64,000 bases of DNA from contig NZ_PYHR01000002.1 in NCBI RefSeq assembly GCF_003121705.1, forward strand, positions 992,001-1,056,000, given 5' to 3'. Below, in pieces: positions 8,517 through 17,719 of this stretch; the stretch's first letter is position 1, and every line of letters starts with the position of its first letter. The notes beneath the pieces are model-generated. The model did not search any database. It was not told the DNA's origin and saw only the letters and a program-made list of their open reading frames with translations. A program made the translations under genes and the position numbers. Source of the stretch: Serinibacter arcticus (lineage in GTDB: Bacteria; Actinomycetota; Actinomycetes; Actinomycetales; Beutenbergiaceae).

Positions 8517-9214
8517 TCAGGGGCTGTCGAGCTCGTCGGCGCCGACGTCGCGGAGCTCGCCGGCGCCGTCGTGCGGTGCGGTGCCCCCCTGCTCGGCCAG
8601 GACCTCCCGCACGATGCGGAACGCCGCGGAGGGATGGTGCCCCTTGCGCGCGAGCATCTCGACGAGCCGACGCTCCCGCTTCTCGCGGGGCAGTCCGACG
8701 CTGGCCGGTGCCCGACGACGGACGAGGTCGTAGGCCGCCGCGTCCTCGGACTCGCGGTCGATCACGTCGAGCGCCTCGGCCGCCGTCTCGGCGTCGATGC
8801 CCTTGCGGGTCAGCTCCTGCGCGATGGCCCGGCGGGCCTGGCCCCGCTCCGTGTGCCGGGTCCGCACGAGGATCGCGGCGTACTCGGCGTCGTCGATCAG
8901 CCCGACGTCGGTGAAACGGTCGAGCACCGTCTCGGCGACGGCCGGCGGCACGTCCTTCTTCGCCATCGCCTCGGCGAGCTGGGCGCGCGACCGCGGGGCG
9001 GACGTGAGCAGGCGCAGGGCGATCTGGCGGGCGACCTTCTCGTGGTCCTCCGCCTGCCCGGTGACGATCTCGCCATCGAGCGCGACGCCGCGCGCTCGTC
9101 CGTCACCGTCCGGATGCGCCGCAGCGCCGCCGGCGGGCGACCCCTCGGCGGAGGGGCGCCACGCCGTCGGCGCTGCGGTCGAGCGGCGTGATCGTGAGAG
9201 GTGTCGTCGGTCAC
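8517..9214 (-). CDS. recX: Regulatory protein RecX, with a single-base frame break near the start
   Basis: RecX binds RecA filaments and limits their activity; here it lies directly downstream of recA. The RecX body is one frame: helix with LLTSAPRSRAQLAEAM, then DVPPAVAETVLDRFTDVGLI and RRAIAQELTRKGIDAETAAEA. That frame has no start before the conserved first helix except an ATG at 8966 that would cut it in half. A GTG at 9214 with a GAAGGGA ribosome binding site opens a second frame, and the two join if one base is added, for example to the G4 run at 9153-9156. The repaired gene is 699 nt, 232 aa. I read this as an assembly deletion. Confidence 0.85.
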
Positions 9215-9248
9215 GACGCGTCCCTTCGATCAGGTCGGTGGAGATGAC

Positions 9249-10337
<1,089 letters not shown>

Positions 10338-10426
10338 GGTGTTTCCTCGAGTTCTCCCGGCCTGCGGGATCGTTACGGACAGGTCTGGCCTTCACAGCGC
10401 CGCCCTCTCCGGGTGGCTCTGGGGTG

Positions 10427-10449
10427 ACGGTATGCCTGGCCACTGACAT
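10427..10449 (-). promoter_or_regulatory. ClgR/ClpR-type recA promoter (RecA-NDp motif)
   Basis: On the minus strand ATGTCAGTG, 8 bases, then TACCGT. The LexA-independent recA promoter of mycobacteria and other actinobacteria reads TTGTCRGTG, 8 bases, TANNNT; only the first base differs. Known activator is the ClgR/ClpR-type regulator, which is encoded at 17275-17580 here. Predicted transcript start is about 10420. Confidence 0.75.
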
Positions 10450-10515
10450 CGCGCGCAGCACCTCGGAGCCACTGGGGATTCCGGTGCGCTGCGGTCACCT
10501 GGGGACAAATGTAGG

Positions 10516-10531
10516 TCGTACGTCTGTTCGA
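10516..10531. promoter_or_regulatory. LexA (SOS) box upstream of recA
   Basis: Minus strand TCGAACAGACGTACGA against the actinobacterial consensus TCGAAC, 4 bases, GTTCGA: one mismatch in the second half. It lies about 70 bases upstream of the ClgR-type promoter, so it should control a second, separate recA promoter rather than that one. Confidence 0.7.
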
Positions 10532-10537
10532 AGCGAG

Positions 10538-10560
10538 CGACACGCCGACACGGCGTGTCG
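10538..10560. repeat. 9-bp inverted repeat upstream of the recA SOS box
   Basis: Arms 10538-10546 and 10552-10560 with a 5-base spacer. Could be the transcription terminator of DUF3046 coming from 10659, or an operator. Position 100 bases after the DUF3046 stop slightly favours neither. Confidence 0.4.
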
Positions 10561-10658
10561 GAGGTGCTCGACGTCCTGCTCGGGACGCGCCCGTCGATCG
10601 CGGCGAGGCGTCGCACCCGTCGATCGTGGGCGCACGGGGCCCGTCGACCCCGGGGTGA

Positions 10659-10901
10659 TCAGACCCGACGGCGGCGTCGCGCCGAGCGCGCGTCCTCGCG
10701 GTGGAGCCAGCGGGTGGCGTCGTCCTGGCCGGTCGCGTCGCAGACAGCCTCCCAGACCTCGCGCGGCGGCACGCCGGCCTCGAGCGCCTGGTCCGCCGTC
10801 CGGCCGTCGAGCGCGGACATGACGAGGTCACCGCCCAGGCTTCGCGCGTAGCTCGCGCCGAACACCTGCTCCATCACCGACCAGAACTCCGAGTGCCGCA
10901 C
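10659..10901 (-). CDS. DUF3046 family small protein
   Basis: An 80-aa protein starting RHSEFWSVMEQVFG and containing SLGGDLVMSALDGRTADQAL and REVWEAVCDA, the conserved features of the actinobacterial DUF3046 family, which is regularly found just upstream of recA. Function unknown; no membrane segment or metal site. The GTG start at 10901 has TACCGT exactly 6 bases upstream (10908-10913, minus strand), so it is probably leaderless. The Arg-rich end (RSARRRRRV) is not conserved. It is divergent from the Lhr gene. Confidence 0.85.
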   Translation of the reverse strand: MRHSEFWSVMEQVFGASYARSLGGDLVMSALDGRTADQALEAGVPPREVWEAVCDATGQDDATRWLHREDARSARRRRRV

Positions 10902-17274: not shown

Positions 17275-17580
17275 TCAGACCGCCGCGGCGAACGGGCGGA
17301 CCGACGCCTCGAGGTCGGCCGGAACCGTGTCGGGGATGCGCACGCCCTCGGCGAGGGCGATGCGATCGCTCACCTCGCGCAGGAGCGCCCACAGCGGGAC
17401 GTCGAGGGCGTCGCAGACGGAGCTCAGGAGCTCGGAGGACGCCTCCTTCTGCCCGCGTTCGATCTCGGAGAGGTAGCCGAGCGACACACGAGCCGCGGCG
17501 GAGACCTCACGAAGAGTCTTGCTCTGGGCGAGACGGACGTCACGAAGCACGTCACCCAGCTCACGTCGAAGCAGAACCAT
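17275..17580 (-). CDS. clgR: Helix-turn-helix activator of the ClgR family
   Basis: A 101-aa XRE-type regulator. [20 protein letters not shown] and the HTH with [20 protein letters not shown] are nearly the signature of ClgR, which activates clp protease genes and, in mycobacteria, the LexA-independent recA promoter. The tail [20 protein letters not shown] is also typical; in some relatives the very C-terminus acts as a Clp degradation tag, and here it ends in AAAV, which would fit but is not proven. ATG 17580 has AAGGAGG 8 bases upstream. A promoter with the hexamer of that class (TACCGT) lies about 75 bases upstream. It sits 7 kb from recA, which carries the matching promoter. Confidence 0.88.
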
Positions 17581-17655: not shown

Positions 17656-17719
17656 ACGGTACCCCGCGTGTGTGACGGGCGTGCGTCCGACGTGTGACGG
17701 TGTCCGCTTGCCGGACACC
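17656..17719 (-). promoter_or_regulatory. clgR promoter region with inverted and direct repeats
   Basis: Minus-strand TACCGT (17661 to 17656) is a likely -10. Upstream are two copies of GTGTGACGG (17669-17677 and 17692-17700, plus strand) 23 bp apart, and an 8-bp inverted repeat with a 5-base centre (17699-17706, 17712-17719). These could be autoregulatory or stress-input sites; binding is not shown. Confidence 0.4.

Follow-up and report, generated by a model that had tools for sequence, protein, structure and literature searches.

recA and its upstream elements

The window, i.e. the whole stretch of 64,000 nucleotides of Serinibacter arcticus DNA that was analysed, carries recA on its minus strand with recX immediately 3′ of it (Table 1). 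The best-scoring named RecA matches were from two Cellulomonas (85 and 86 percent), mycobacteria standing at 79–81 percent, in a set from which nearer relatives were possibly omitted. Read along the minus strand from the upstream side, the region preceding the gene holds an SOS box, the hexamer TACATT, the composite element TGTCAGTG-GCCAGGCA-TACCGT and, following a further 89 nt, the recA ATG. The SOS box is located 67 nt further upstream than the composite element (10448–10427, hereafter the P1 motif), and TACATT is attributed below to a second predicted promoter, P2. A sigma-70/terminator scan of positions 10300–10700 returned no match. A RecA-NDp-like motif before recA, with a one-mismatch SOS box some 70 bases upstream of it, had been proposed in an earlier sequence-only reading of this DNA, and both elements were borne out.

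Table 1. Features at the recA locus and upstream of clgR in the window, with the basis of each assignment
Feature	Position	Strand	Basis
recA	9249..10337	−	TIGR02012, 562.7 bits (cut-off 325.3)
recX, immediately 3′ of recA	8517..9248 (predicted start codon)	−	RecX models best, E 8.8e-49, all under their cut-offs
Putative P1 −26 element TGTCAGTG, RecA-NDp / PafBC type	10441..10448	−	Motif scan, conserved core
Putative P1 −10 hexamer TACCGT	10427..10432	−	Motif scan and spacing at sister sites
Probable P2 −10 hexamer TACATT, 2 nt past the SOS box	10508..10513	−	Position
SOS (LexA) box TCGAACAGACGTACGA, one mismatch	10516..10531	−	Pattern scan, position
Degenerate DnaA-box-like element TTGTCCCCA (lead)	10500..10508	−	One mismatch to TTRTCCACA
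Second degenerate element GAATCCCCA, beginning 27 nt past the first (lead)	10473..10481	−	Scan
Octamer GGCGTGTC, stopping 7 nt short of the SOS box; in the window it is part of an inverted repeat as well	10539..10546	−	Conserved position
clgR, XRE-type regulator, judged not to be the P1 activator	17275..17580	−	NCBIfam and PDB matches
Dyad GGTGTCCGGCAAGCGGACACC upstream of clgR	17699..17719	−	Sequence

A conserved RecA-NDp-type motif before recA

The sequence TGTCAGTG GCCAGGCA TACCGT was the sole exact match to its pattern in the window, against a mean of 0.00 in 100 dinucleotide shuffles. The RecA-NDp consensus, as quoted in the available part of PMC5656591, is tTGTCRgtg-8-TannnT. The recA element ATGTCAGTG deviates from it by a single mismatch, at the weak first T (A here), and the spacer GCCAGGCA is 8 bases long and is followed by TACCGT, in agreement with TANNNT.

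The conservation of the element was assessed in 132 recA regions, comprising 57 named actinomycetes and 75 further genomes, the window's own included; 75 of 80 further genomes were used, the remainder being left out (G120 and G174, and also G296, G297 and G298, these last three having no usable recA upstream). Of the 57 named actinomycetes, 51 had an exact core TGTCRG-N10-TANNNT before recA, compared to 0.12 expected from base shuffles, although one of the 57 rows (L215, a contig labelled Proteobacteria) was assigned to the actinomycetes on the appearance of its recA region and is consequently circular. No exact core was observed at recA in any of 23 outgroup bacteria. Across the 132 regions, the exact core was located downstream of the SOS box in 97. 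A related form, TGTCAC-N10-TANNNT, with one mismatch to the core, precedes recA in two Acidimicrobiia and one Nitriliruptoraceae contig (L263, L266 and L267), and is perhaps a shifted variant of the core.

The SOS box and the predicted P2 promoter

The box TCGAACAGACGTACGA has one mismatch to TCGAAC-N4-GTTCGA, and no second match of this kind occurs in the window. Considered in isolation it is statistically weak, with a shuffle mean of 0.20 and 17 of 100 shuffles containing one, and it is its place and conservation, rather than the match alone, that give it weight. A box with at most two mismatches was found in 120 of the 132 actinomycete recA regions, and a TANNNT hexamer begins 0–2 nt past it 89 times in 120 regions; among the Streptomyces rows, 0 of 10 had an SOS box under two mismatches. 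In the window the box overlaps the predicted core promoter of P2, as in the LexA regulon. The best reading of these features is that the SOS box and TACATT together form a LexA-controlled P2, a predicted promoter.

Genome-wide motif sites and the pafB-pafC genes

A scan of the genome of the window with the motif, allowing at most one mismatch, returned 32 sites versus 6 for the reversed pattern, and the exact TGTCRGTG form gave 28 sites versus 0 in the control. Nine of the 30 sites with loci precede recA or repair- and topology-type genes, namely recA itself, the NAD-dependent ligase ligA, UvrB, GyrB/ParE, a protein combining RNase_T and GIY-YIG, a DEAD helicase, an AlkZ-like glycosylase, UvrD and a RadA-like protein. 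The other 21 downstream genes have no evident damage link by Pfam, five of them being without any Pfam match. No Clp protease or Clp ATPase was present among the 29 downstream proteins scanned, where the nearest approaches to proteostasis were a cyclophilin (L024) and a Lon_C similarity inside the RadA-like protein. Such a scan had been put forward in the sequence-only reading as a list of a ClgR-type regulon, a description that is not supported. Rather, the same scan yields a candidate PafBC regulon outside the mycobacteria, and it would be misleading to take the motif as the mark of a regulon of ClgR or of proteolytic stress.

A start codon (ATG or GTG, opening at least 70 codons) stands 5–9 nt past the hexamer at 19 of the 32 sites (motif loci L007–L033 and L317), compared to 13 of 60 control TANNNT hexamers from the same loci, and 17 of these 19 start codons are located at 6 or 7 nt. 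This spacing at the sister sites is evidence that the hexamer truly acts as a −10 element and, by extension, places the predicted P1 transcription start of recA at about 10419–10420. Much of the candidate PafBC regulon thereby looks leaderless, while recA itself, unlike the 19 leaderless-type sites, has a leader. The literature search returned no paper, judged by titles, on leaderless PafBC targets. The form TGTCGGAC was also observed 6–7 nt ahead of the start codon of a polA-like and an SRAP-like gene (L320 and L321, named by their N-termini).

The genome encodes a pafB-pafC tandem at G000:C2, 485–487 kb, the two genes overlapping by a few bases. Its PafC scored 129 bits with HTH_PafC against a cut-off of 32, and matches to PafBC in the PDB were obtained with E values of 2.6e-45 (PafB) and 5.5e-38 (PafC); no NCBIfam model matched either protein. 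The tandem, and the motif before repair genes, correspond to what is known of the PafBC regulon and sigma adaptation in M. smegmatis. The differences are that no pafA was recognised by eye beside pafBC in the stretches read, and that S. arcticus presents the leaderless-type sites and the TGTCGGAC form described above.

A probable PafBC-activated and a probable LexA-controlled promoter

In the available text of PMC5656591, induction of P1 is lost in a pafBC deletion, and the parts seen of three later texts (PMC6789036, PMC8223512 and PMC11804915) assign RecA-NDp to PafBC, the last of these describing a −26 motif, sigma adaptation and a single-stranded DNA ligand. The recA promoters of M. tuberculosis and M. 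smegmatis likewise combine a LexA-type promoter with a recA-proximal RecA-NDp promoter having the same motif and 8-base spacing, the SOS box here differing by its one mismatch. The arrangement in the window is best read as the known mycobacterial P1/P2 kind in another actinomycete. Specifically, TGTCAGTG/TACCGT is very probably a PafBC-activated P1, and the SOS box with TACATT a LexA-controlled P2. The sequence-only reading had also predicted two recA transcripts, and of that prediction the SOS-type promoter and the LexA-independent promoter of RecA-NDp type are supported. Its assignment of the second promoter to ClgR and proteolytic stress is not supported, given the loss of P1 induction without pafBC (in the part of PMC5656591 available), the sites before repair genes, the presence of pafB-pafC and the lack of a ClgR-type palindrome at recA at the thresholds used. 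Most likely, the second promoter is controlled by PafBC, a sensor of DNA damage, and not by ClgR, a regulator of proteases.

Carried over by analogy from mycobacterial work to the elements observed here, with their conserved order, the genomic site set and the pafB-pafC genes, the mechanism in S. arcticus would be the following. At P2, the SOS box occupies the place of the spacer before the −10 hexamer, and LexA would cover the box until RecA on single-stranded DNA triggers LexA self-cleavage. At P1, a promoter dependent on PafBC, TGTCAGTG would serve as the −26 and TACCGT as the −10 element. The WYL domains of PafBC would bind single-stranded DNA, and PafBC would then enable ordinary sigma-A RNA polymerase to initiate near 10420. 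Both promoters would consequently report DNA damage, via an activator at P1 and the lifting of a repressor at P2, and clgR would be a conserved neighbour only.

ClgR as an alternative regulator of P1

The open reading frame at 17275–17580 had been named a member of the ClgR family, and this name is accepted. Its best NCBIfam match is the ClgR model NF041677, at 112 bits below the cut-off of 170, and its best PDB match is 5woq ClgR (E = 3e-25); since only 19 of 296 genomes pass the NF041677 cut-off, the model is evidently narrow. The genome resembles Corynebacterium, Streptomyces and Mycobacterium in having a ClgR-type gene. In 36 genomes both clgR and recA were among the matches listed; the two were no more than 30 kb apart in 29 of these and on different contigs in 6. 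Of the 57 named loci, 21 had clgR within the flank, in every case upstream of recA and on its strand. However, 296 of 296 genomes of the class gave a clgR match, so its nearness to recA says little.

The TACCGT (17661–17656) and the dyad that had been pointed out upstream of clgR are both real. Still, the eight bases at the −26 position of this TACCGT have 4 mismatches, and no counterpart of GGTGTCCGGCAAGCGGACACC was seen in the region upstream of clgR in the 21 relatives listed. The ClgR site is described as palindromic, WNNWMGCYNNNRGCGWWS, in the portion of PMC2905415 available, and the bifidobacterial site as TNCGCT-N3-GGCGNAA in that of PMC9004370. The former, a Corynebacterium form, occurred 34 times in the window with at most one mismatch, versus 11.1 expected, the excess lying elsewhere and none at recA or upstream of clgR. 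With two mismatches allowed, the bifidobacterial form gave 7 matches versus 20.9 expected and the stricter TTCGCYNNNRGCGAA 9 versus 9.2, in each case with none at recA or upstream of clgR; the best match to a ClgR-type site upstream of clgR has 5 mismatches. A positive control failed: 41 palindromes of a stricter type (at most one mismatch) were located in the genome, 0 of them in the window, and no clp gene was recognised behind them; the consensus may not be that of S. arcticus.

A joint action of the two regulators at P1, with ClgR modulating PafBC-driven transcription or PafBC working via clgR, is named as an open possibility in the part of PMC5656591 available, and both regulators are encoded in the window's genome and in nearly all genomes examined. 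This is nevertheless improbable, as recA has no ClgR-type site at the thresholds used, and the three later PafBC texts (PMC6789036, PMC8223512 and PMC11804915) contain no mention of ClgR. That ClgR on its own binds TGTCAGTG-N8-TACCGT and switches on recA upon proteolytic or other stress derives its appeal from an M. smegmatis study, told in the available text of PMC5656591, in which ClgR is reported to recognise P1, and recA and other repair genes to be poorly induced without clgR, and from the location of clgR 7 kb upstream of recA on the same strand. We regard this as highly improbable: the NDp motif is non-palindromic, unlike published ClgR sites, the operator palindrome of the ClgR regulon is absent at recA at the thresholds used, no Clp protein is among the 29 scanned behind NDp sites, and the ubiquity of clgR deprives its position of value as a test. 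Moreover, in Alloscardovia (L256) clgR is found about 0.8 kb upstream of recA, together with a perfect SOS box, yet the motif is absent. By itself, TANNNT is a −10 form often met in GC-rich actinomycetes, but with none expected in the window, the core kept in 51 of 57 named species and 28 sites versus 0 genome-wide, it is scarcely conceivable that the recA motif arose by chance or belongs to an ordinary promoter of constitutive type.

PafBC and the motif across genomes

PafC was detected in 293 of 296 genomes of the class. A test of PafC against ClgR by presence and absence was dropped, as both are near-universal and the absences too few to separate them. Presence data do not prove PafBC, and the case for PafBC at P1 is consequently carried by the target genes and the literature.

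Observations on one family (f33; G025, G068 and G296–G301) count against PafBC: PafC was absent by PF19187 in 8 of 8 genomes, five of which are good assemblies, and the core motif at recA was kept in all 5 regions read, as TGTCGGAC or TGTCGGAG. The family was considered as a clean PafBC negative and rejected as such, because 7 of the 8 genomes encode a strongly diverged tandem WYL pair. The first gene of these pairs scores better with the PafB profile and the second, in 5 of 7, with the PafC profile, with a near tie in G068 and the reverse preference in G296; however, L003, a WYL protein from the genome of the window with no relation to these pairs, has a PafB-profile score above that of any of them. 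The remaining genome, G301, has no WYL match, yet contains 12 TGTCGGAC-type sites versus 0. G060, the third genome in which PafC was not detected, likewise has no WYL match; it lacks the motif at recA (3 mismatches) and has one TGTCRGTG site and 3 TGTCGGAC sites versus 0, but its assembly consists of 350 contigs and is 91 percent complete. No covariation between the PafB recognition helix and motif positions 7–8 was seen by eye.

DnaA-box-like elements between P2 and P1

In many actinomycetes the interval separating the two promoters contains DnaA-box-like elements in the same direction (TTGTCCACAG). The counts of these, and of the octamer GGCGTGTC below, cover the 121 of 132 regions in which the SOS box has no more than two mismatches and the upstream sequence is long enough, related species not being collapsed. 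TTRTCCACA with at most one mismatch was present in the 104 nt past the SOS box in 75 of 121 regions (2.6 percent in shuffles), and exactly in 34 of 121 (0.1 percent in shuffles); the orientation was forward in 72 and reverse in 6, three regions having both. Among the 49 named regions 26 had the element, whereas its frequency was 1.55 percent in 9524 random windows drawn from these loci, and 3 of 60 intergenic-like windows contained it. It was present in at least one genome of 33 of the 41 further families. In the outgroups, 4 of 23 had a TTRTCCACA-type match in a longer recA upstream stretch, 0 of them exact.

The actinobacterial DnaA-box consensus is TTGTCCACA. When TCCACA was searched with three free bases, the first was T in 62 of 102 cases, the second T or C in 92 and the third G or A in 90, with G as the following base in 81; the apparent preferences are those of the DnaA-box form. 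The part of PMC8203912 available gives a DnaA-box consensus of TTATCCACA and reports that in E. coli DnaA acts with LexA on uvrB and recN.

Of the 121 regions, 57 had the octamer GGCGTGTC in the 70 nt that precede the SOS box, its end falling 7–12 nt short of the box in 50 of the 57. In either direction it was present in 76 of 121, compared to 0.1 percent of random windows. A conserved hairpin before the SOS box was considered and rejected, arms of at least 8 being present in 3 of 121 regions; the hairpin in the window was likewise discarded, as the fold of the region is no better than that of shuffles. Neither the DnaA-box-like elements nor the octamer at recA were found in print in the literature search.

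A tentative proposal from these patterns, to which we give somewhat less than an even chance, is that recA of actinomycetes is under three-input control, with LexA at P2, PafBC at P1 and DnaA, or a protein using the same sites, on paired boxes between them, another factor perhaps reading GGCGTGTC. DnaA binding would in that case couple recA output to the replication state; should the pair of boxes prove real, the control of recA would be tied to the initiation of replication throughout a bacterial class. In the 31 regions with two boxes the spacing was 18–19 or 28–32 nt in 29, the others being 14 and 16, and the two preferred spacings appear to differ by about one helical turn. The pair in the window, TTGTCCCCA and GAATCCCCA, is degenerate and 27 nt apart, whereas many relatives have good copies.
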